Part shown: positions 2,844 to 17,664 of the stretch, piece by piece
Position numbering within the stretch: the stretch's first letter is position 1
Layout of the letters: the number at the start of each line of letters is the position of its first letter
Assembly: GCA_022828125.1 (NCBI GenBank)
Contig: JAJEJD010000008.1
Coordinates: 186,001-250,000 of the forward strand
Direction: 5' to 3'
From: a bacterium
GTDB taxonomy: Bacteria > UBA8248
Length of the DNA stretch: 64,000 nucleotides
Position numbers and translations under genes: made by a program
Notes under the pieces: generated by a model
The model's database searches: none
What the model saw: only the letters and a program-made list of their open reading frames with translations
Told to the model about the DNA's origin: nothing

Positions 2844-3554
2844 ATGCGCTCTCAAGACTTCACTCGCTCGACCGGGCAACGCGTCATCGCACAAGACGCC
2901 GCCGCGTTCATGCAGCGCGTCTACGGTTGGATGACGCTGGGGCTCTTCGTCACGGGCTTCAGCGCGCTCTACGTCGCATCCAGCCCCGCCGCCATCCAGT
3001 TCATCTTTGGAAGCTCCATCTCGGTATTTCTGGTCATCGGTGTTCAGCTCGCGCTGGTTTTCTCCATCAGGCCGGTGATGCGAAGCAAGGGCTGGCAGGC
3101 GGGCGCGATTTTGTTCCTGCTCTACAGCGCGACGCTGGGCGTCACCGTCTCCACCCTGCTCCTGCGCTATACGTTCACCTCCGTGGCCCAGGCGTTTTTC
3201 GTCACCGGCGGCGCGTTCGGCGGATTGACCCTCTTCGCCTTCGTGACGAAAAAAGACCTCTCGGGAGTGGGCAATTTCTGCATGGTGGGGCTCATCGGCA
3301 TCATTCTCGCCAGCGTCGTCAACATCTTCGTGGGCAGTTCCGCCGTTCATTTCGCCATCAGCGTTCTGGGGGTTCTCATCTTTGCGGGTCTGACGGCCTA
3401 TGACACCCAGAAGATGAAGGAATACGCCTACACCCAGGACACGGACAACGAAACGGGCAGGCGCGCCTCCATCATGGCGGCGCTCGAACTCTACCTCGAT
3501 TTCATCATGATGTTCATTTACCTCACGCAGCTTCTGGGCGCTTCGCGCGAATGA
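2844..3554 (+). CDS. Bax inhibitor-1 / YccA family membrane protein
   Basis: A 236-residue inner-membrane protein with about seven hydrophobic helices. It carries the family's C-terminal signature ALELYLDFIMMFIYLTQLLG and a middle GLTAYDTQKMKEYA segment (conserved AYDTQ). BI-1/YccA proteins are putative pH-sensitive ion-leak channels, and in E. coli YccA interacts with the FtsH protease. Length is typical. ATG at 2844 is preceded by AGGAGG, leaving no doubt about the start. The gene stands alone: the upstream gene is divergent and a clear terminator follows. Confidence 0.92.
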   Translation: MRSQDFTRSTGQRVIAQDAAAFMQRVYGWMTLGLFVTGFSALYVASSPAAIQFIFGSSISVFLVIGVQLALVFSIRPVMRSKGWQAGAILFLLYSATLGVTVSTLLLRYTFTSVAQAFFVTGGAFGGLTLFAFVTKKDLSGVGNFCMVGLIGIILASVVNIFVGSSAVHFAISVLGVLIFAGLTAYDTQKMKEYAYTQDTDNETGRRASIMAALELYLDFIMMFIYLTQLLGASRE

Positions 3555-3578
3555 GCAAGGCAACCTTATCCATCCACA

Positions 3579-3609
3579 AAGCCGGGGCTTCGGCCCCGGC
3601 TTCGCTTTA
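3579..3609 (+). terminator. Rho-independent terminator of the Bax-inhibitor gene
   Basis: A perfect GCCGGGGC-TTCG-GCCCCGGC tetraloop hairpin (about 3581-3600, extended by AA/TT pairs) is followed by TTCGCTTTAA, 25 bases after the stop codon. Confidence 0.8.
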
Positions 3610-3635
3610 ATAGCAACGCAACTATGGTTTGTCTC

Positions 3636-3665
3636 TTCCAATTTACCAATAATGAATGATATAAT
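3636..3665 (+). promoter_or_regulatory. Possible promoter of the coiled-coil OmpA gene
   Basis: A perfect -10 hexamer TATAAT at 3660-3665 lies about 50 bases before the start codon. The -35 is weak (TTCCAA at 3636, 18-base spacer). Confidence 0.4.
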
Positions 3666-3716
3666 CCGGAGCGTTGAAGAAGAAACGCCCATTATCGCCC
3701 TGGCAGGAGAATAACC

Positions 3717-5816
3717 TTGGGCCTTCGCATCTCCATAGGGGCGATTATCGCCGTTCTGCTCGGCGGCACAGGATATTTCGCCCAGCAATCCCAAACGACA
3801 AAAGATCTGCTCCAACAGCGTGAGGCTGAACTCAAAACAGAAAAAGAGAGTTCCGCAAAGCTCAAAAGCGAAATTCAGGGCCTCAAAGACATAGACCAGA
3901 AGATGAAGAGTCTGGAGTCCCAGCTTGCAAAAGAGGTTGCTTCCGCCAAGACGCAGATGGAAGAGCTGGACAAGCGCGTCACCGAGAAAAGCGCCGCTAT
4001 CGAGCAGGATCAAGCGAAAATTCAAAGCCTCGGGGCCGCGCTCCAGGAAAACCAAACTGCCCTCGATAACGAGCGTAAGGCGCGCGCCGAAGTTGAAAAA
4101 TCAAACCAGCAAAACGTCGAACTCGCCGCCGGTCGAGCCGAAGAGATAGTACGCCTCGAAGCCGCTCTCAAAGAAAATCAAACGACTCTTGCGAGCGAAC
4201 GCAAAGCAAGATCCGAAGAATTAAAGCGTCTCGAAGCGCAGGCCAAAGAGTCGAGCCGACTCGCTGCGAAGAAAGACGAGGGGATCAAACAGCAAAAAGC
4301 CGAAATCCGAAACCTCAAAGCCGTAGCGGACATCATCGAAGCCTCCCTCAATTACCAGAGCAGATTACGCGCCAAGGCCGAAAAGGCGAACAAAGCCAAC
4401 ATTGAGCTGGCGGCCAACCGGGCCGAAGAGATAAAGAACATCGAGGCCGCTCTCAAAGAAAATCAAACGACTCTTGCGAGCGAACGCAAAGCGAGATCCG
4501 AAGAAATAAAGCGTCTCGAAGCGCAGGCCAAAGTGACGAGCCGACTCATCGCGGAGAAAAACACCGCTATCGAGCAGGAAAAAGAGAAAGCCCGAAAATT
4601 CGAAATCGCCCTCAAACGAATTCAGGCGAACCTCAAGAGCGACCGCAAAACACAGGCGCTCGTCGATAAATTGAGCAAACAAACTCTCGAGTTCGCAGCC
4701 GAGCGGGCCAAAGAGATCAAACGCCTCGAAAGCGTCCGGGGCATTCTCGAAGCCCAGGTTCTGAGAATGGACCGACTCATCGCATCCGAGCAGAAAGAAG
4801 CGAAAAAAAATGACATCACCGCTATACCCAAGACAGCAGCAACAACAGAAAAAGTAAAAGCCTTGAATGGCGAACTTGCCAGGAAGCGAACCGAGGAAAT
4901 CGCCCGTCTCGAAAAAACCAGAGCGCTCCTCAAAACCCAGGTTCAGGAAATGGGACGGCTGATTGCGGAGAAAAACGCCGGAATCGCGCGCGAGAAAACG
5001 AAAGCGCAAAACCTCGAGCTCGCGCTCAACCAAATCCGCACGAGTCTCGACAACGAGCGCCAGACGCGCGCGAAGGCGGAAAAAGCGAATGCACGGAATG
5101 CCGAGCTCGCGAGAATCAGAGCCGAAGAGATAGGGCGTCTCACAAAAGCCAGGGAGCTTCAAAAGGCGCAGATACAGGAGATGAGCCAACTCATCGGCGA
5201 GAAAACCTCCGTGGCCGAACTCATCAAGAACAAGCTGGATCAGACGAACCTGAGTCTGGCGGAAACGATCAAGAAACACACGCTGGCGATCGCGCGCTCG
5301 AAAGTCCTGGAAAAGAGAGCGCTCGAAGAGGCCGAGCGAGCCAAAAGGCTGGAATCGGATCTGAGTGAAATGAGCAGCAAGCTCAAGGAGCAACTCGTCA
5401 GCCTGCAAGAGACCAAAGACTTGCTCCGCGTCACCTTCGTAAACAGTCTTTTGTTTGATTCGGGAAGCGCCACACTCAAGGAACAAGGCAGAGAGGCGCT
5501 CTCAACAGTTGCAGATTTTCTTCAGAAACAAAAAGACAAGATGATCCGGATAGAAGGGCATACGGACAATCGGCCCATCAAGGGCAACCTGCTCGATCGC
5601 TACCCCTCGAACTGGGAACTTTCTTTCGCGCGCTCCATTTCCATCGTGAAGTTTCTGGAATCGAAAAACATATCGCCCGCGCGCATGTCGGCGACCGGGC
5701 ATTCGTTTTACCGTCCCGTGGCGAGCAACGAAACCGACGAGGGCCGCGCCAGGAACAGACGAACCGTCATCCTGCTCAGCAGCCCCCGGCCCAAGGTGGA
5801 AGGGGCGGCTCGCTAG
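3717..5816 (+). CDS. Membrane-anchored coiled-coil protein with C-terminal OmpA domain
   Basis: A 699-residue protein. Residues 1-22 form one hydrophobic helix (ISIGAIIAVLLGGTGYF). Residues about 25-570 are an almost unbroken Glu/Lys/Ala-rich coiled coil. Residues about 575-690 are an OmpA-family peptidoglycan-binding domain with FDSGSATLKEQG, IEGHTDNRP, NWELSFARS and GRARNRRTVI. The plan (short cytoplasmic tip, one membrane helix, long rod, cell-wall domain) suggests a spacer from inner membrane to peptidoglycan, as in MotB or gliding and tethering proteins. The start is TTG at 3717 behind AGGAGA. The rod contains a recent internal duplication (see the repeat entries). The gene stands alone, convergent with the M16 peptidase gene. 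Its exact role is unknown. Confidence 0.85.
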   Translation: MGLRISIGAIIAVLLGGTGYFAQQSQTTKDLLQQREAELKTEKESSAKLKSEIQGLKDIDQKMKSLESQLAKEVASAKTQMEELDKRVTEKSAAIEQDQAKIQSLGAALQENQTALDNERKARAEVEKSNQQNVELAAGRAEEIVRLEAALKENQTTLASERKARSEELKRLEAQAKESSRLAAKKDEGIKQQKAEIRNLKAVADIIEASLNYQSRLRAKAEKANKANIELAANRAEEIKNIEAALKENQTTLASERKARSEEIKRLEAQAKVTSRLIAEKNTAIEQEKEKARKFEIALKRIQANLKSDRKTQALVDKLSKQTLEFAAERAKEIKRLESVRGILEAQVLRMDRLIASEQKEAKKNDITAIPKTAATTEKVKALNGELARKRTEEIARLEKTRALLKTQVQEMGRLIAEKNAGIAREKTKAQNLELALNQIRTSLDNERQTRAKAEKANARNAELARIRAEEIGRLTKARELQKAQIQEMSQLIGEKTSVAELIKNKLDQTNLSLAETIKKHTLAIARSKVLEKRALEEAERAKRLESDLSEMSSKLKEQLVSLQETKDLLRVTFVNSLLFDSGSATLKEQGREALSTVADFLQKQKDKMIRIEGHTDNRPIKGNLLDRYPSNWELSFARSISIVKFLESKNISPARMSATGHSFYRPVASNETDEGRARNRRTVILLSSPRPKVEGAAR
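4161..4262 (+). repeat. Internal direct repeat, copy 1 (in OmpA coiled-coil gene)
   Basis: This 102-base block is repeated at 4446-4547 with about 4 mismatches. The offset of 285 bases keeps the frame and equals 95 codons. It encodes the KENQTTLASERKARSEE rod segment. Confidence 0.9.
4446..4547 (+). repeat. Internal direct repeat, copy 2 (in OmpA coiled-coil gene)
   Basis: Second copy of the 102-base block at 4161-4262. The low divergence indicates a recent in-frame duplication of a 95-residue coiled-coil module. Looser copies of the same module continue downstream (for example ENTAIEQEK- and EMGRLIAEKNAG-type segments). Confidence 0.9.
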
Positions 5817-9361: not shown

Positions 9362-9468
9362 AATATGTCCACCAGAAGCCGGAGAACTTGATCGCGAGAA
9401 TGATGGGTAGATTCACGGCAAAAGCGATTCATGATCTACGCCGCCAGTTACGTGGAGCAAGATTGTTC

Positions 9469-11082
9469 ATGAGACCGCCCAAATCGTTTTCTCTGTGTTG
9501 TGGTGTGCTTTTCGTTTTCCTGTCCTTCCCGTTTTTTACGCACGTCGCCTCGGCCGCGGAATCCGGCATGTCTGCGGAAACTTCTTTCGAACGTCCACGC
9601 AGCAACGTGGCGCCGCCGAGCATAAGAGGCCCTCGCCTCTCGCTGTCCATACGAGAAGCCGTGAGCATCGCCCTCGCGCGCAATTTCGACATCACCATCG
9701 CCGGGTTCGACCCCGACATCGCGGAAAGCAACGTCACCAGAGAACGCTCCGCATTCGACCCCCAGGCCTTTGTGGACACGAGTGCCAGCAAATCCAAGCT
9801 CGATTCCGCGAACACCGCATTCAACGCGACCGGGGGCATACGGGAAACCGACAGCTTGGGTATCGCGGCCGGCATACGTCAAAAGATAATCACGGGAGCC
9901 GAGTATTCGCTCATCCTGCGAAACATCAGGGAATCGACGAACTCTCCACAGAACCGTTTCGACCCGAGTTATCAAACCAGTCTCACTTTCACCATCGAAC
10001 AGCCTTTGCTCAAGAATTTCGGCATCGATATCAACCGGGCCAGGATCAAGGTGGCCATGGCCACGAAAGAGCAAACGCTCCATGCGTATCGAAGCAGGGT
10101 CATCCAGACGGTGGACGCCGTTCAGCAGGCTTACTGGAATCTCGTCTTCTCCATCGAAAATCTCCAGTTCAGGCGACAATCCCTCGACCTCGCGAAGGAC
10201 CTCTTGCGCCGGAACAAGATTCAGGTCGAGGTCGGCACGCTCGCTCCGATAGAGATAACGGAGGCGGAAGCCACCGTCGCCTCCCGGGAAGAAGCCCTTC
10301 TCGTAGCGGAGCGCGAAGTCAAGGACAGGGAAGACACCCTGAAAATGCTGCTGAACGTAGCGGAAGAGCCCTCTTCCTGGAGCATCAGCGTTCTGCCCCG
10401 CGACAAGCCGGAGTTCGAGATGGTTCAGGTAGACGAGATGCAACTCACGCTCGACGCCTTGCGCAAGCACGCGGCGCTGGAAAACGCCCGCATCGAAATC
10501 GACAAAAGAGAAATCGACATGAAAGTAGCGGCGCAAAACCTGCTTCCCGAAGTCAACTTGAACGCATCGGCATCCAACAACGCGCTTGCGGAAACCGAAG
10601 GAAGAGCTTTTGAAGAACAATTCAAGAACGAAAATTACACCTTCTCGGGCGGGATTTCGTTCCGCATCCCCCTCGGAAACAGGGGAGCGAACGCGGACTA
10701 CCGCCAGGCGCAACTCCGGCACGCCAAAACGGTGGCCTCCTACCATCAAACGCAACAGGCCATCATGGAGGAAGTCCGACGCAACGCGCGCCGGGTTCGC
10801 GTAAACGTAAAAAGAATCGAGGCGACGCGCGTCGCCAGAAGGCTGGCGGAAGAACGCCTCGACGCCCAGGAGAAGAAATTCAAGGTCGGCCTCTCGACGA
10901 GCAGAAACATTCTCGAAGACCAGGAAAGGCTGGCCAACGCGCTGACGGAGGAAACCCGGGCGCTCATTGACTACCACAAATCTCTCGCCTCATTGGATAG
11001 GGCGACCCACTCCACGCTCGAACGATTCCAGATCGAAATGTTCTATCCCGGCGAGACGAAGACGAAAACGACAAAAAAATGA
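9469..11082 (+). CDS. TolC family outer-membrane efflux/secretion channel protein
   Basis: A 537-residue outer-membrane protein with two OEP repeats, the trimeric channel used by efflux pumps and type I secretion. From ATG 9469 it begins with a classical signal peptide (MRPPKSFSLCCGVLFVFLSF, cleavage after the Ala-Ser-Ala-Ala near residue 30). The frame is open from a TTG at 9388, but that start would bury the signal. Helical OEP segments include QQAYWNLVFSIENL, VEVGTLAPIEITEAEA and KVGLSTSRNILEDQE. No membrane-fusion or pump gene is adjacent. It overlaps ruvX by ATGA, so it heads an operon with ruvX and mltG. Confidence 0.88.
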   Translation: MRPPKSFSLCCGVLFVFLSFPFFTHVASAAESGMSAETSFERPRSNVAPPSIRGPRLSLSIREAVSIALARNFDITIAGFDPDIAESNVTRERSAFDPQAFVDTSASKSKLDSANTAFNATGGIRETDSLGIAAGIRQKIITGAEYSLILRNIRESTNSPQNRFDPSYQTSLTFTIEQPLLKNFGIDINRARIKVAMATKEQTLHAYRSRVIQTVDAVQQAYWNLVFSIENLQFRRQSLDLAKDLLRRNKIQVEVGTLAPIEITEAEATVASREEALLVAEREVKDREDTLKMLLNVAEEPSSWSISVLPRDKPEFEMVQVDEMQLTLDALRKHAALENARIEIDKREIDMKVAAQNLLPEVNLNASASNNALAETEGRAFEEQFKNENYTFSGGISFRIPLGNRGANADYRQAQLRHAKTVASYHQTQQAIMEEVRRNARRVRVNVKRIEATRVARRLAEERLDAQEKKFKVGLSTSRNILEDQERLANALTEETRALIDYHKSLASLDRATHSTLERFQIEMFYPGETKTKTTKK

Positions 11083-11522
11083 GTCATCCCCGAATTCTGG
11101 GAATGGACTTCGGCGAAAAACGCGTGGGTCTCGCCATCAGCGACTCGCTCGGTCTGACGTCCCAGCCACTCGGCCTCATCGAAAGGCGAAGTGATGCGCA
11201 ACTGCTCGACGAGGTAAGCGGCATCATCCGTGAGCGTGATGTTCACCTGCTGGTCGTGGGACACCCCGTCGGACTATCGAACCGCGATACGTCCAGGGCG
11301 AAGCGCACGAGAAGGCTCGTGAAATTTTTGCGCAACAATTTAGCGATCCCCGTCGAGAAATGGGACGAGCGGCTCAGCACGACGCAGGCGGACCGGGTTT
11401 TGAATGAAACGGAAACCAAGCCGAGCAAAAAGATGAAAAAGCGCGACGTCATCGCGGCGCAACTCATACTACAGGCGTACCTGGATCATCAGAGGATGGA
11501 ACGCGCGATTTCCCATGAGTGA
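11079..11522 (+). CDS. ruvX: RuvX/YqgF family putative Holliday-junction resolvase / pre-16S rRNA nuclease
   Basis: A 147-residue RNase H-fold protein. The catalytic acids sit in the expected places: MDFGEKRVGLAISD (Asp10), KWDERLSTTQA (Glu about 95) and KKRDVIAAQLIL (Asp about 126). YqgF is an essential factor for final 16S rRNA 5' maturation in E. coli and is a proposed resolvase elsewhere. It overlaps the tolC stop by 4 bases and mltG by 8. A yqgF-mltG neighbourhood is common in bacteria. Confidence 0.92.
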   Translation: MSHPRILGMDFGEKRVGLAISDSLGLTSQPLGLIERRSDAQLLDEVSGIIRERDVHLLVVGHPVGLSNRDTSRAKRTRRLVKFLRNNLAIPVEKWDERLSTTQADRVLNETETKPSKKMKKRDVIAAQLILQAYLDHQRMERAISHE

Positions 11523-12582
11523 AAAAGAAAATCCCCCCGAAGAATCCGATGCGCCGGAAACATCGCCTCCCGCCAGAAAGAGGCGGCTCGGTAAAATCCT
11601 CGTCTCCCTTTTCTCCTCCATCATCCTGGCCGCTTTCATCGGCTATCAATATCTTGATGCCGAATTCAATCGGCCCGCGAACCCCCGGGCGGATGAAGCA
11701 AAGGACATTCATGTCCGCCCGGGCATGTCCTTCGCCCGGATTCTGGCGTTGCTGGAGAAAAGCGGCTTGATTCGAAACCCCGGATTGTTTCACTTCCAGG
11801 CCAGACTCAGGGGCGGCGCCAAAAGCATCCAGGCCGGCGTCTATGCGCTCAAAGCATCCATGTCGCCGCGAGAGATATACCGGCATCTATCGGAGGGCAG
11901 AGTCGCCCGGCGCACTTTCACCATTCCCGAGGGCTACAACGTCCGGGAAATCGCTCGAACGATTCGCCGTGCGAAACTCGCAGACGAAGAGAAGATTCTC
12001 AGACTCTCCCGCGATCCTTCTTTCCTTCGAGAACTAAACATTCCCGCAACTTCCATCGAGGGATATCTATTCCCCGACACGTATCATTTCCCGGTGGGCA
12101 CGGAGGCAAGAAAAATCCTGGGATTCATGGTTCGCACGATGCGGAGGAAATTCTCGCCCGCCCTCAGAAAACAGGCGAAAGCGATGGGATTCACCATGCA
12201 CCAGACGCTCACCCTGGCCTCGATAATCGAAAAAGAGACATCTCTCGGCAGCGAACGCCCACTCATCGCCGCCGTGTTCATCAACCGCCTCAAACGAAGA
12301 ATGCGCCTCCAGAGCGACCCCACCGTCATATACGGGCTCCCCCATTTCGATGGAAACATCACCAAAAAAGATTTGCGGTACGACTCACCCTATAACACCT
12401 ACCGCCACCGGGGGCTCCCCCCGGGCCCCATCGCCAGCCCGGGGCTGGAATCCATCAAATCGGCCCTGAATCCCGCCAACGTGAAATACCTGTATTTCGT
12501 GGCCACCAAGGACGGCGGCCATCAATTTTCCCGCACGTACCGCGAACACCGCCGCGCCGTAAACCGGTACCAACGCCGATAG
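11515..12582 (+). CDS. mltG: Endolytic murein transglycosylase MltG
   Basis: A 355-residue protein with a short Pro/Lys/Arg-rich cytoplasmic tail, one membrane helix at about residues 28-48 (KILVSLFSSIILAAFIGY), a LysM-like subdomain (VRPGMSFARILALLEKSG) and the YceG catalytic domain. The catalytic Glu is in LASIIEKETSLGSERP, followed by the family's INRLKRRMRLQSDPTVIYGL. MltG cleaves nascent glycan strands and sets glycan length in the periplasm. The start overlaps ruvX, so the pair is co-translated. Family length and motifs are complete. Confidence 0.95.
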   Translation: MSEKENPPEESDAPETSPPARKRRLGKILVSLFSSIILAAFIGYQYLDAEFNRPANPRADEAKDIHVRPGMSFARILALLEKSGLIRNPGLFHFQARLRGGAKSIQAGVYALKASMSPREIYRHLSEGRVARRTFTIPEGYNVREIARTIRRAKLADEEKILRLSRDPSFLRELNIPATSIEGYLFPDTYHFPVGTEARKILGFMVRTMRRKFSPALRKQAKAMGFTMHQTLTLASIIEKETSLGSERPLIAAVFINRLKRRMRLQSDPTVIYGLPHFDGNITKKDLRYDSPYNTYRHRGLPPGPIASPGLESIKSALNPANVKYLYFVATKDGGHQFSRTYREHRRAVNRYQRR

Positions 12583-12739
12583 GGGCAGGTTGACCCCGGA
12601 ATTGCGCTGGTGGCATGATTGTCAACCAGTTGCCCGGCGCAAGAAGGCTCGAGAGTTCCAAAGATATCTGAGTATAGATTGCTGACTCTTATCCTCCTTT
12701 CGGCTCACCCGGCGAGCGCCCGGACGAGGAACCGAACAC

Positions 12740-13495
12740 ATGGCGACCAGATTACTTCTCCTCGATGAAAGCCTCTTGGTGCAACGCGTCGTTGAATTGG
12801 CCTTCAGGGATAAGGGAGTCGACGTCCGGATAGCGGAGAATGCAGACGAAGCGCTTGAAATCGCGGAGAATGCGGCGCCGGACATCGTCGTCGCCGGCCT
12901 GGACCTGGAGCACTCCGACGGCTTGGGATTTTGCCGTCGCCTGCGCGAAAAACCGGAATTCTCCCAGGTCCCTCTCCTCGTTTTAACGAGTACGCGCAAC
13001 AGCGTCAGCGATGAGGAAATCCAGGAAGTGGGCGCAATGGCGAACATCGAGAAACCGTTCAAACCGGTGGTATTCACGGACGAAGTGGAGCGCATCATCG
13101 GTCCTGGACATATCGCATCGACGCCGGAGCCCGATTCCCCGGAAATCGGGATGGAGGAAGCGCCCCCCGCTCCGGGAGACGCCATAGCGGAACCCGCTGA
13201 AACGCCTTCCGCCGAGGCTGCGGAAGAAACACCCGAAGAAATGGAATCGGCCCCCGCCGAGGCGGAAGGCGCGAAACCTGCAAGCGATGAGGAGCAAGCC
13301 CCCTCTTCCGATGCCCCGCTCGCCCTCGACAGCGAAACACTCGCCCCCATCATCCAGAAACATCTCGAAGAAGCCGCTGAAAGGATCGCCCCCACGTTGC
13401 TCAGCCACATCGAAGACGCCGTGGTAAAACAACTCCCCTATATCGTAGAGAAAATCGTCATTCGAGAAATCGAAAAAATCAAACGCGGAGAATAA
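12740..13495 (+). CDS. Receiver-domain protein lacking the phosphoacceptor Asp (pseudo-receiver)
   Basis: A 251-residue protein. Residues 3-120 are a response-regulator receiver fold: acidic pair Asp9-Glu10 (LLLDESLLVQRVVEL), Thr83 (LLVLTST) and Lys105-Pro106 (IEKPFKP). At the expected phosphorylation site the sequence reads PDIVVAGLDLEHSDG. Counting back from the DG, the acceptor position is Gly53, not Asp. Residues about 125-195 are a Pro/Ala/Glu-rich linker. The last 55 residues form amphipathic helices (HLEEAAERIAPTLL, IVEKIVIREIEKIK) seen in a deltaproteobacterial-type response-regulator family. No kinase is nearby. It sits 3 bases before valS, so the two are likely co-transcribed. It is probably a phosphorylation-independent interaction module. 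Confidence 0.75.
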   Translation: MATRLLLLDESLLVQRVVELAFRDKGVDVRIAENADEALEIAENAAPDIVVAGLDLEHSDGLGFCRRLREKPEFSQVPLLVLTSTRNSVSDEEIQEVGAMANIEKPFKPVVFTDEVERIIGPGHIASTPEPDSPEIGMEEAPPAPGDAIAEPAETPSAEAAEETPEEMESAPAEAEGAKPASDEEQAPSSDAPLALDSETLAPIIQKHLEEAAERIAPTLLSHIEDAVVKQLPYIVEKIVIREIEKIKRGE

Positions 13496-13498
13496 GTT

Positions 13499-16120
13499 TT
13501 GCTGGAACCCCGTTACGACCCGAAAGGGGCCGAAGATCGCTGGTATGCCGAATGGCTGAAGCGCGGATATTTTCACGGTGCGCCCAGCGAGAACCACGAG
13601 CCTTATTCCATCGTCATCCCGCCCCCGAACGTGACGGGCTCGCTCCACATGGGTCATGCCCTGAACAATACCCTGCAGGACATCCTCATCCGCTGGAAAC
13701 GCATGAGCGGCCTGCGCGTCTGCTGGATGCCCGGCACCGACCACGCGGGCATCGCCACCCAGAACGTGGTGGAGCGCCAACTCGCCGAGGAGAATCAATC
13801 GCGCGAATCCCTGGGGCGCGAGAAATTCATCGAGCGCGTCTGGAAGTGGAAAGCCGAGAGCGGCGGAACCATCATTCGCCAGCTTCACCGCCTGGGCGCT
13901 TCGTGCGACTGGGAACGCGAGCGGTTCACGATGGACGAGGGGCTCTCCCGCGCCGTGCGCGAGGCCTTCGTGAGGCTCTACGAAGAGGGGCTGATCTACC
14001 GCGACAATTATCTGGTGAACTGGTGCCCGAGGTGCGAGACGGCCGTTTCCGACCTGGAAGTCGAGCACGAAGAACACGACGGCCACCTGTGGAATTTCCA
14101 CTACCCGCTCTGGAGCGGCGGGGACGGCGTCACCATCGCGACGACGCGCCCCGAGACCATGCTCGGCGATACGGCCGTGGCCGTCCATCCCGACGATGAG
14201 AGATACAAAAGCCTCGTGGGCGAGCATCTGCGCCTGCCGCTTCTGGACAGGAAAATCCCCGTCATCGCGGATTCTTTCGTGGACGCCGAGTTCGGCTCCG
14301 GCGCCGTGAAGGTCACGCCCGCGCACGACCCGAACGATTTCGAGGCGGGCCTCAGAAACGACCTGCCGCAAGTCAACATCCTCACGCCGGATGCCAAGAT
14401 CAACGAAAACGGAGGCCCCTACGAGGGGCTGGACAGGTTCGTGGCGCGCGAACGCATCGTCGCCGATATGGAAGCGCAGGGGTTGATGAGGGGGGTGGAG
14501 GCCCATCGCCACGCCATCGGCGGGTGCTACCGCTGCGGAACAGTGGTGGAGCCTTACCTCTCGAAACAATGGTTCGTGCGCGCGAAGCCGCTGGCGGAGG
14601 AATCGATACGCGCGGTCGAGGACGGGCGGATCAGGATCATCCCCAAGCAGTGGGAGTCCACCTATTTCGAGTGGATGCACAACATCCGGGACTGGTGCAT
14701 CAGCCGCCAGATCTGGTGGGGCCACCAGATACCCGCCTGGTACAACGACGACACCGGAGAGGTGGTCGTGTCGCGCGAAGATCCGGGCGACCCGAACTTA
14801 AGACGCGAAACCGACGTGCTCGACACCTGGTTCAGCTCGGCCCTGTGGCCTTTCTCGACGTTCGGGTGGCCGGATGAGAACGCAGACCTGAAATACTTCT
14901 ACCCCACGTCCGTTCTCGTGACCGGCTTCGACATCATCTTCTTCTGGGTGGCGCGGATGATCATGACGGGGCTCCAGTTCATGGACGACGTCCCCTTCCG
15001 CGACGTCTACATCCACGCGTTGGTGCGGGACGAGCAGGGACACAAGATGAGCAAGACGCGCGGGAACATCATCGACCCGCTGGAGATCATCGAGGAATTC
15101 GGAACGGATTCTCTGCGCTTCACCCTCACCGCGATGGCTGCCCAGGGGCGCGACATACGCCTGTCCACCGAGCGAATCGCCGGATATCGGAATTTCTGCA
15201 ACAAAATCTGGAACGCCGCCCGCTTCACGCTGATGAACCTGGGCGAGAGCGTTCCGCCCATGCCGCCGAGAGAAGAACTCTCACTCGGGGACAGGTGGAT
15301 ACTGAGCCGCCTGAACGGCGTGACGCGCCAGGTGGACGAGGCGCTCGAAGAATACCGCTTCAACGACGCCGCCCTCGCGCTCTACCATTTCACCTGGCAT
15401 GAGCTCTGCGACTGGTATTTGGAGGTCACCAAGCCCGCCCTCACCTCCGGGGAGGGCGGCGACGCCAGCCGCGCCGTGCTCGCCGAGGCGCTCGAGCGCA
15501 CGCTGCGGCTGCTGCACCCAATCATCCCCTTCATCACCGAGGAGATATGGCAAAGGCTCCCGAACCGCACGGGCGAGAGCATCATGGTGGCCGAATGGCC
15601 GAAGCCGCAGGAGGGGTGGGACGACGCGCAAGCGGAAGCGGAGTTCGAGGCCCTGACGGAGATGATCGGTGGCATCAGAAACATACGGGGGGAGCTCAAC
15701 ATTTCCCCCAACAGGGAGATGTCCGCGCACATTCAGGTGCAGGACCCCGGGAAAATCGACGTCATCATGCGCGAATCCGAGTGGATACGGAGACTGGCGA
15801 GAATAGCGCCCGACTGGAAGGTCGGCCCCGACGTGGAGCGTCCCAGGGCGTCGGCCCACACCGTTTTCGGCTACGGGCAGGCGTTCGTGCCCATCGGCGG
15901 ACTCATCGACGTCGAAGAGGAACTGAGACGCCTCCACAAGCAAATCGCCGACAAAGACGATACGATATCGGGCCTCGAGAAGAAGCTCGCCAACCCCGCT
16001 TTCGTCGAACGCGCGCCCGCCGAGATCGTGGAGAAGGACAAAGCCCGCCTGCGCGAGAACCAGGAGGCCAGAGACAAACTACGCGAGAGCGCGGAGCGCA
16101 TCGCAGAGTTCCAGGACTAG
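13499..16120 (+). CDS. valS: Valyl-tRNA synthetase
   Basis: An 873-residue class Ia synthetase. The ATP-binding signatures are HMGH (SLHMGHALNNTLQD, near residue 45) and KMSKT (GHKMSKTRGNIIDP, a variant of KMSKS). It has the CP1 editing domain (TTRPETMLGDTAVAVHP, GSGAVKVTPAHDPNDF) and a C-terminal coiled-coil arm (LRRLHKQIADKDDTISGLEKKL). It charges tRNA-Val and edits mischarged Thr. TTG at 13499 behind CGGAG is the best start, three bases after the pseudo-receiver stop. Length is typical. Confidence 0.97.
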   Translation: MLEPRYDPKGAEDRWYAEWLKRGYFHGAPSENHEPYSIVIPPPNVTGSLHMGHALNNTLQDILIRWKRMSGLRVCWMPGTDHAGIATQNVVERQLAEENQSRESLGREKFIERVWKWKAESGGTIIRQLHRLGASCDWERERFTMDEGLSRAVREAFVRLYEEGLIYRDNYLVNWCPRCETAVSDLEVEHEEHDGHLWNFHYPLWSGGDGVTIATTRPETMLGDTAVAVHPDDERYKSLVGEHLRLPLLDRKIPVIADSFVDAEFGSGAVKVTPAHDPNDFEAGLRNDLPQVNILTPDAKINENGGPYEGLDRFVARERIVADMEAQGLMRGVEAHRHAIGGCYRCGTVVEPYLSKQWFVRAKPLAEESIRAVEDGRIRIIPKQWESTYFEWMHNIRDWCISRQIWWGHQIPAWYNDDTGEVVVSREDPGDPNLRRETDVLDTWFSSALWPFSTFGWPDENADLKYFYPTSVLVTGFDIIFFWVARMIMTGLQFMDDVPFRDVYIHALVRDEQGHKMSKTRGNIIDPLEIIEEFGTDSLRFTLTAMAAQGRDIRLSTERIAGYRNFCNKIWNAARFTLMNLGESVPPMPPREELSLGDRWILSRLNGVTRQVDEALEEYRFNDAALALYHFTWHELCDWYLEVTKPALTSGEGGDASRAVLAEALERTLRLLHPIIPFITEEIWQRLPNRTGESIMVAEWPKPQEGWDDAQAEAEFEALTEMIGGIRNIRGELNISPNREMSAHIQVQDPGKIDVIMRESEWIRRLARIAPDWKVGPDVERPRASAHTVFGYGQAFVPIGGLIDVEEELRRLHKQIADKDDTISGLEKKLANPAFVERAPAEIVEKDKARLRENQEARDKLRESAERIAEFQD

Positions 16121-16888
16121 ATGGACCCCACCGGCGCCGACGTGAAAACGCTCGCCTGGCGGATCGAAACGGTTGACGAAACAGGCTCCACCAACGATCT
16201 GGTCTCCGCCCGCGCGCGAGCGGGCGAAGCGGGCGGCCTCGTCATACGCGCGATCTCCCAAACAACAGGGCGCGGCAGAAGGGGGCGCTCCTGGTTCTCA
16301 CCGCCTGAGAGCGGACTTTATTTCTCCATACTGTTTCGCACAGGTGGCGAAGCTGAAAATTCACCCCTACTGACGCTCCTCCTCGGCGTCGCCGCCGCAG
16401 AGGGACTCGCGGAGGCGACGGGCCTCCGGGTCGGGCTCAAATGGCCGAACGACCTGCGGGTGAACGGCAAAAAAATCGGCGGAATCCTCTGCGAATACTT
16501 CGAACCCCCGAACCAGCCTCCCGCCGTCGTCGCAGGCGTAGGCGTCAACCTCACGACGCGCGAAGCCGACTTCCCCCCCGATCTGCGCGAGTCGGCATCC
16601 TCGGTTCTCCTCTCGGGAGGAGAGGTTCCCGACGCGGAGGGTCTCCTCCATCTCCTTCTGGCGCGGGTCGCTTTCTGGTACAAGGAATATGAATCGAGCG
16701 GTTTCGGCGCCGTCCGCGACCGCTGGCTCAGGCTGTGCGACAGTCTGGGCGAGACGATATCCGTCCGCGCCGCGGATGAGACTTTGGTTGGAAAAAACAA
16801 CGGGATTGACGAGGCGGGCCGCCTGCTGCTCGAAAAACCAGACGGCTCCATCGAGCGGATAACCTCCGGCGAGGTGGAACTCCCATGA
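16121..16888 (+). CDS. birA: Biotin-[acetyl-CoA-carboxylase] ligase
   Basis: A 255-residue biotin protein ligase. The biotinyl-AMP loop GRGRRGRSW is near residue 50, with the core LKWPNDLRVNGKKIGGILCE and a C-terminal SH3-like domain. It activates biotin and transfers it to the biotin carboxyl carrier protein. It lacks the N-terminal helix-turn-helix of the E. coli regulator, so it is a group I, non-regulatory ligase. It begins directly after the valS stop and overlaps coaX by ATGA, an arrangement (birA-coaX) common in bacteria. Confidence 0.94.
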   Translation: MDPTGADVKTLAWRIETVDETGSTNDLVSARARAGEAGGLVIRAISQTTGRGRRGRSWFSPPESGLYFSILFRTGGEAENSPLLTLLLGVAAAEGLAEATGLRVGLKWPNDLRVNGKKIGGILCEYFEPPNQPPAVVAGVGVNLTTREADFPPDLRESASSVLLSGGEVPDAEGLLHLLLARVAFWYKEYESSGFGAVRDRWLRLCDSLGETISVRAADETLVGKNNGIDEAGRLLLEKPDGSIERITSGEVELP

Positions 16889-17664
16889 ACCAGGGCTCCT
16901 ATTTGCTGGCCGTCGACGTGGGCAACACGCAGACCGTCGTGGGGCTTTTCGACGGCGATGAACTCGCTTCGAGCTGGCGGCTCGGCTCCGTGGCCCGCCG
17001 CACGACGGATGAGTTGGCCATTCTCATGGAAGGCTTGTTCCGGCTCGGGCGTCACGAGATGTCGGACGTGGGCCGCGTGGTGATCGCGAGCGTCGTCCCC
17101 CCCCTGGGGCCGAACCTGGAGGAGATGGCGAAGCGCTATTTCGGCGTGAAACCGCTGGTCGTCGGCCCGGGCATACGGACGGGCATCTCCATCAAGTACG
17201 ACAATCCCCGAGAAGTCGGGGCGGACAGGATCGTCAACGCCGTCGCCGGCTATCACCTCTACGGCGGGCCTTTGGTGATCGTCGATTTCGGAACGGCCAT
17301 CACCTTCGACGCGATATCCGCCGCGGGCGAATACCTGGGCGGCGCCATATCGCCCGGCCTGGGAATCGCCCTGGAAGCGCTCATCGACAAAACGGCCCGG
17401 CTCCCCCGGGTCGAAACCGCCGTGCCGCCGTCGGTCATCGGGAAGAACACGGTCCACAGCATCCAGGCGGGCATCGCGTACGGCTACCGAGGCCTGGTGC
17501 GGGAGATCGTGGAGCGCATGAAAGCAGAACTCGGGAGCGGCGCCAAAATCGTCGCAACGGGCGGCCACAGCCTGGCATTGAATGAAGAAGACGGAATTTT
17601 CGACCTGATCAACCCCGATTTGACCCTCCTGGGCCTGCGCCTTATCGCCGAGCGAAACCCCTGA
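16885..17664 (+). CDS. coaX: Type III pantothenate kinase
   Basis: A 259-residue ASKHA-fold kinase that phosphorylates pantothenate, the first step of CoA synthesis. Motifs are LAVDVGNTQTVVGLFDG (phosphate-1 loop), GADRIVNAVAGYHLYGG, VDFGTAITFDAIS and GGAISPGLGIALEAL. CoaX enzymes need a monovalent cation and are not inhibited by CoA. The start overlaps birA by ATGA. The stop is followed by a 47-base gap to the convergent yraN gene, which contains a weak GCGGCC/GGCCGC inverted repeat. Confidence 0.95.
   Translation: MNQGSYLLAVDVGNTQTVVGLFDGDELASSWRLGSVARRTTDELAILMEGLFRLGRHEMSDVGRVVIASVVPPLGPNLEEMAKRYFGVKPLVVGPGIRTGISIKYDNPREVGADRIVNAVAGYHLYGGPLVIVDFGTAITFDAISAAGEYLGGAISPGLGIALEALIDKTARLPRVETAVPPSVIGKNTVHSIQAGIAYGYRGLVREIVERMKAELGSGAKIVATGGHSLALNEEDGIFDLINPDLTLLGLRLIAERNP

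Follow-up and report, generated by a model that had tools for sequence, protein, structure and literature searches.

A receiver-like protein without its phosphoacceptor, encoded ahead of valS, has a C-terminal helix related to those of RomR and PopZ

The window analyzed here is a 64,000-nucleotide stretch of bacterial DNA in which a gene directly ahead of valS encodes a receiver domain with glycine at the position of the phosphoacceptor. What would such a receiver do, and why does its gene stand next to that of a tRNA synthetase? The first-pass annotation had called the protein a pseudo-receiver and had considered a phosphorylation-independent regulator or scaffold linked to the valS-birA-coaX operon. 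We found that the protein has a three-part architecture (receiver, linker, and helical tail), that the acceptor has been lost throughout its phylum, that the tail is related to those of RomR and PopZ, and that the position before valS is shared with them. From these observations we propose, with a probability of roughly 0.66, that the gene product is a RomR/PopZ-type scaffold that assembles itself, offers its receiver as a fixed docking surface, and is located most likely at a cell pole.

Architecture and acceptor position

The features of the locus are listed in Table 1. The TAA of the pseudo-receiver gene ends at position 13495 and the TTG of valS begins at 13499, which agrees with the 3-base spacing first reported, and Pfam likewise places birA and coaX downstream. 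With Pfam at an E value of ≤1e-5, no histidine kinase was found in 20 selected long neighboring ORFs lying between 0.7 and 31.6 kb or in the seven-gene stretch that runs from the efflux gene through coaX, in line with the earlier statement that no kinase lies nearby. The window's genome has 11 receiver matches altogether and a single copy of the tail, as found with the A4 profile described below.

Table 1. Coordinates of the pseudo-receiver gene, its parts, and its neighbors within the window
Feature	Positions	Strand	Basis
Pseudo-receiver/disordered linker/helical-tail protein	12740..13495	+	ORF, 251 aa; orthologues in 17/18 genomes of the phylum
Receiver domain, residues 1-120	12740..13099	+	Response_reg E 3.2e-16; PDB receivers E 1.7e-15
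Codon 53, GGC (Gly) at phosphoacceptor position	12896..12898	+	Ser in 16/17 of the phylum
Acidic/proline linker, residues 123-193	13106..13318	+	28% D+E, 18% P, 1% K+R; pLDDT under 50
Helical tail, residues 198-251, predicted PopZ/RomR-type oligomerization end	13331..13492	+	Helix model, phylum conservation, profile matches
157-nt gap 5' of pseudo-receiver gene, candidate promoter region	12583..12739	.	ORF coordinates
valS, TTG start 3 nt past stop of pseudo-receiver gene	13499..16120	+	tRNA-synt_1 E 1.1e-148 (Pfam)
birA-type biotin ligase	16121..16888	+	Pfam
coaX (type III pantothenate kinase)	16885..17664	+	Pfam
mltG/YceG, upstream	11515..12582	+	Pfam; order kept in phylum
ruvX, upstream	11079..11522	+	Pfam; order kept in phylum
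Outer-membrane efflux (TolC-type) gene, upstream	9388..11082	+	Pfam; in 14/16 other phylum loci with the family gene, missing where contig short

Pfam Response_reg matches residues 6 to 114 of the protein (E value, 3.2e-16), and the domain keeps the acidic pair D9/E10, T83, and K105, as annotated. Gly53 aligns without gaps to the acceptor column of receivers in the PDB (best E value, 1.7e-15), a column that holds Asp in the T. maritima receiver u95790 and Ala in the best PDB match, u110068. The acidic pair and the lysine of a canonical response regulator receiver are present and the acceptor Asp is missing, and the pseudo-receiver reading was right. Because the fold, the acidic pair, and the lysine are kept but the acceptor is not, the receiver probably serves as a docking site with an unchanging surface. 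An AlphaFold2 model made from five sequences is weak for the whole protein (mean pLDDT of 54 and pTM of 0.27), and the receiver fold thus rests on sequence. In this model, the tail forms one helix at residues 198 to 248, with a pLDDT of about 79 to 90 there, which answers the earlier call for structure prediction of the C-terminal helices. The linker is about 71 residues long. A PDB search with the tail gave a best match of only E 0.21, so this search offered no solved relative of the tail.

We compared the gene across a sample of 18 genomes of the phylum. It is present in 17 of them (all except G012), and valS is the next gene in each of the 17. At position 53, 16 of these receivers have Ser, the window alone has Gly, and none has Asp; D9 and K105 are invariant, and T83 varies. 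Gly53 is thus a private change of the window's genome, the state of the lineage being Ser. Glycine is therefore not conserved at this site, a matter that the first-pass annotation had left to be checked, and neither do its homologues all carry Asp, the pattern it had named as fatal to its own reading. The tail is the best-conserved part of the protein within the phylum, with 19 of its last 42 positions invariant in all 17 sequences. The linker has 60 to 78 residues in the window genus versus 313 to 486 in the other genera of the phylum. The order efflux gene-ruvX-mltG-pseudo-receiver gene-valS-birA is retained on every contig that is long enough to show it.

Relatives outside the phylum and their linkage to valS

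To find relatives, a profile of 13 tails (A4) was searched against 290 genomes at an E value of ≤0.01, a threshold at which about three chance matches are expected. There were matches in 52 genomes: 17 belong to the phylum, and 35 are among the 272 outside it; 7 of these 35 (G049, G090, G097, G176, G231, G238, and G265) had themselves supplied rows to the profile. Among the 35 outside ORFs, the N terminus is a complete receiver in 31, a partial one in 1, and cut by the contig start in 3; L141, L168, L174, L175, and L177 are truncated ORFs without a complete receiver. Every outside ORF with a visible N terminus has a receiver, barring two second matches without one that were left out of the counts: L159 in G231 and L164 in G141, the latter RNase G-like by eye. 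The match L074 (G066), which from its look we presumed to be a DUF445-like protein, was dropped. The family is found in all three genomes of the phylum of G231, and 17 of the 52 in the phylum of G097 match, with the N terminus visible in few.

Of the 31 outside genomes whose receiver is complete, 26 have Asp as the acceptor. The statement that related regulators with this kind of helical tail usually retain it thus holds outside the phylum; within the phylum the count is 0/17. The exceptions carry Asn (G028), Ala (G170), or Ser (G236, G094, and G176). In a tree of 51 receivers, in which the acceptor column was kept, as few as two changes could explain the acceptor states. Since the deep forks of this tree are weak (67/80), we claim no number of independent losses above two.

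The linkage to valS, whose conservation had also been put forward for checking, extends beyond the phylum. valS lies directly downstream in 23 of the 35 outside genomes, and in 20 of the 28 whose tails were not used to build the profile. In the remaining 12 of the 35, no valS was found within the examined flanking stretch. Members with flanks but no valS nearby are L138, L139, L142, L144, L148, L156, L163, L167, L169, and L170; by eye, the gene after L169 is nadC-like and the one after L170 purM-like.

Likeness to RomR and PopZ

One outside member, L162 (G045, 9.0 Mb), we take to be RomR. It is named so because it shows the sequence landmarks published for Myxococcus xanthus RomR: Asp53, a C-terminal His with a Trp 26 residues ahead of it, and the order receiver-linker-helix. 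Its gene is 23 nt ahead of valS. The tail occurs in 135 of the 146 sampled genomes of the phylum of L162, and among the best 30 of these loci, valS is next in 27, a receiver motif is seen in 27, and Asp is found by pattern in 25. The window protein and RomR thus have in common a receiver, a disordered linker, a C-terminal helix that is conserved and contains an invariant Pro, and a gene directly before valS. They differ at the acceptor, with RomR keeping Asp53 where the window protein has Gly and 16 of the 17 in the phylum have Ser, and in the invariant tail Trp of RomR (W394), which in the window protein is Val, four residues before the conserved Pro. The linker of L162 is 33% Pro but just 3% acidic.

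RomR is reported to work with MglA, MglB, and MglC. A search for Robl_LC7, which covers proteins of the MglB/MglC type, detected none in the 18 genomes of the phylum; the control rings gave 3/14. A whole RomR polarity module is therefore unlikely in this phylum, and a PopZ-like role appears more probable there, to judge from this comparison. The C-terminal part of RomR is reported to be needed for oligomerization, MglC binding, and polar localization (PMC10329633), its helix is reported to form trimers (PMC12719032), and in 31 genomes this part has been described as not homologous to characterized domains (PMC3441718). For a receiver that has given up phosphorylation, a precedent is reported in Bdellovibrio RomR, which is likewise RomR-type without use of receiver phosphorylation (PMC6428892); the Bdellovibrio protein has lost the beginning of its receiver, whereas in the window protein the acceptor residue is substituted.

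The tail also resembles that of PopZ, the pole organizer of the alphaproteobacteria. The Pfam family PF10691 (DUF2497) matches the same tails with E values of 3e-5 to 9e-3 in 14 of the 290 genomes, 9 in the phylum and 5 outside, and in L050, L046, and L075 it ranks second among Pfam families (about 3e-4). Its curated cut-off was reached in none of the 290 genomes; the window protein scores 14.1 bits against a cut-off of 27 (E value, 0.067). When the genomes were searched with GcrA for an alphaproteobacterium, only G074 passed the cut-off; it is the sole genome of its class and had no PF10691 match. For comparison with true PopZ sequences, we used 4 tails of 3 genera, from four alphaproteobacterial replicons in large plasmid-collection records. 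With hhalign, 40 nonalphaproteobacterial tails aligned to these 4 with a probability of 96.1% and a score of 45.1 over a matched stretch of 45 to 53 columns. The phylum tails alone gave 95.7% and 44.0, and the score without the window's phylum was 42.1. Among 160 controls, the 100 column shuffles scored at most 15.0, the reversed profile scored 13.0, and 59 windows of five other proteins scored at most 15.2. In a search of three of the four replicons, all complete (0.85, 3.7, and 4.6 Mb), the nonalphaproteobacterial profile had one match in each at an E value of ≤1, and this match was PopZ (7e-8, 4.7e-7, and 8.5e-6).

Further likenesses to PopZ lie in the linker and in the genomic position. 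PopZ has an acidic, proline-containing disordered linker, reported as 0.29 acidic and 0.23 Pro (PMC9512792), and the values for the window linker are near these. The same source portrays PopZ as modular, with a client-binding end, a disordered spacer, and an oligomerization domain, and has its C terminus driving condensates. By profile, this oligomerization domain is related to the tail; it has also been used as a tool on RomR (PMC11025332). In the alphaproteobacterial loci that we examined, popZ is near valS, with a kinase gene between them in the Sphingomonas record, and published work places it near valS in Caulobacter and Agrobacterium (PMC5686542) and, with an efflux gene alongside, in Magnetospirillum (PMC6414705). 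A tblastn search of the alphaproteobacterial loci at 1e-5 gave no match to the efflux gene of the window, and the adjacency of an efflux gene in both settings may be coincidence. At the N terminus the proteins differ, PopZ having a short helical client-binding region where the window protein has the receiver, and the window protein does not reach Pfam's PopZ cut-off.

A proposed polar scaffold and its alternatives

In the reading that we favor, the C-terminal helix would oligomerize and drive assembly, the acidic and proline-rich disordered linker would space and tune the assembly, and the N-terminal receiver, without a phosphate on the usual Asp, would present a fixed docking surface to clients. 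The scaffold would assemble most likely at a cell pole. FrzS-type pseudo-receivers are likewise polar proteins with an unphosphorylated receiver fold, but their C-terminal part differs, being a long coiled coil. Because the genes of RomR and PopZ also adjoin valS, the linkage looks like an inherited gene order of polar scaffolds, and valS is probably an old neighbor, a matter of gene order rather than of control over tRNA charging. The scaffold half of the original suggestion thus stands as the likely role, while a working tie to the valS-birA-coaX operon is not supported, the tail being related to the oligomerizing and pole-targeting ends of RomR and PopZ. On balance, the evidence tips slightly toward a wider reading, in which RomR and PopZ descend from one ancient valS-linked scaffold made of a receiver, a disordered linker, and an oligomerizing helix and occurring in many bacterial lineages; PopZ would have lost or replaced the receiver, RomR would have kept it live, and the window's phylum would keep it dead. 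In the portions of the literature searched (subscription journals and preprints were outside its scope), we found no statement of kinship between RomR and PopZ. We regard the dead-receiver form as a new variant of RomR/PopZ-type scaffolds and the shared family origin as the part worth following.

Several points were counted against the scaffold reading: the unmet PF10691 cut-off, the missing RomR Trp, the lack of detected MglB/MglC-type proteins, the fact that PopZ has no receiver and has an N-terminal helix of its own, the 12 of 35 outside genomes without valS downstream, the kinase gene between popZ and valS in the Sphingomonas record, the 3% acidic linker of L162, and the weak model. Some of these bear on whether the protein could be an ordinary scaffold unrelated to PopZ, with tails alike merely as short amphipathic helices. 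The shortness of the matched stretch, the subthreshold PF10691 matches, and the small number of alphaproteobacterial tails would fit that case. We nevertheless consider it unlikely, as each of three replicons gave only one match, none of the 160 controls came above 15.2 against 45.1, and the position near valS is shared, including in Caulobacter, Agrobacterium, and Magnetospirillum according to the papers cited. That the protein is instead a true RomR orthologue in a GTPase polarity module, its receiver merely dead, fits the domain order and the place before valS; with Robl_LC7 (MglB/MglC) not detected in the 18 genomes, and with the acceptor Asp and the tail Trp both missing, we find this distinctly unlikely.

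The linkage itself, in 17 of 17 genomes of the phylum and 23 of 35 outside, and the 3-nt spacing would suit a protein that works without phosphorylation as a regulator or chaperone, either of ValS itself or of the valS-birA-coaX operon. Such a role is very doubtful, however: Pfam finds no DNA- or RNA-binding domain in the window protein, the tail groups with those of RomR and PopZ, whose studied roles are at the cell poles, and the gene is away from valS in 12 of the 35 outside genomes. Hardly credible is the view that the protein is an ordinary response regulator taking its phosphate on Asp55, two residues along, or on some other residue, even though D9/E10 and K105 are kept and Asp55 is present in the window genus. 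We rejected Asp55 as the acceptor because the alignment is gap-free and Asp at +2 is confined to the window genus (7 of 17), with none of the remaining five gene-bearing genera of the phylum having it; the alternative alignment that the first-pass annotation had allowed for was not found.

If the scaffold reading with its common origin is true, PopZ of Caulobacter and RomR of Myxococcus, which have been studied separately, have a scaffold core and a place in the genome in common, and the tail profile together with valS becomes a simple way to find pole organizers in lineages lacking known ones. RomR would then be a PopZ relative in bacteria described as lacking PopZ. Bdellovibrio is reported to have no PopZ homologue and an unknown polar oriC anchor (PMC6606864 and PMC10294633); since it has RomR, the question of its anchor would become testable. 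The pseudo-receiver lineage, for its part, shows which part of the scaffold survives once phosphorylation is given up.

Some individual members are of interest in their own right. The congeners L140 (G022) and L150 (G170) differ at the acceptor, one having Asp and the other Ala, which is a recent loss and a natural experiment. In L176 (G340:C14), a form of 1,286 residues, the acidic linker is very long and Ser takes the place of the acceptor. At about positions 3072 to 5604 of G090:C5, L171 is a tandem pair of receiver-linker-tail genes before valS, both with the acceptor Asp, and in L141 (G048:C23) the tail is apparently repeated in tandem inside one ORF before valS. The set-aside match L159 (G231:C97, minus strand, around 1546 to 1755) is a 178-residue protein in which a RomR-like tail follows a start that is antitoxin-like by eye.
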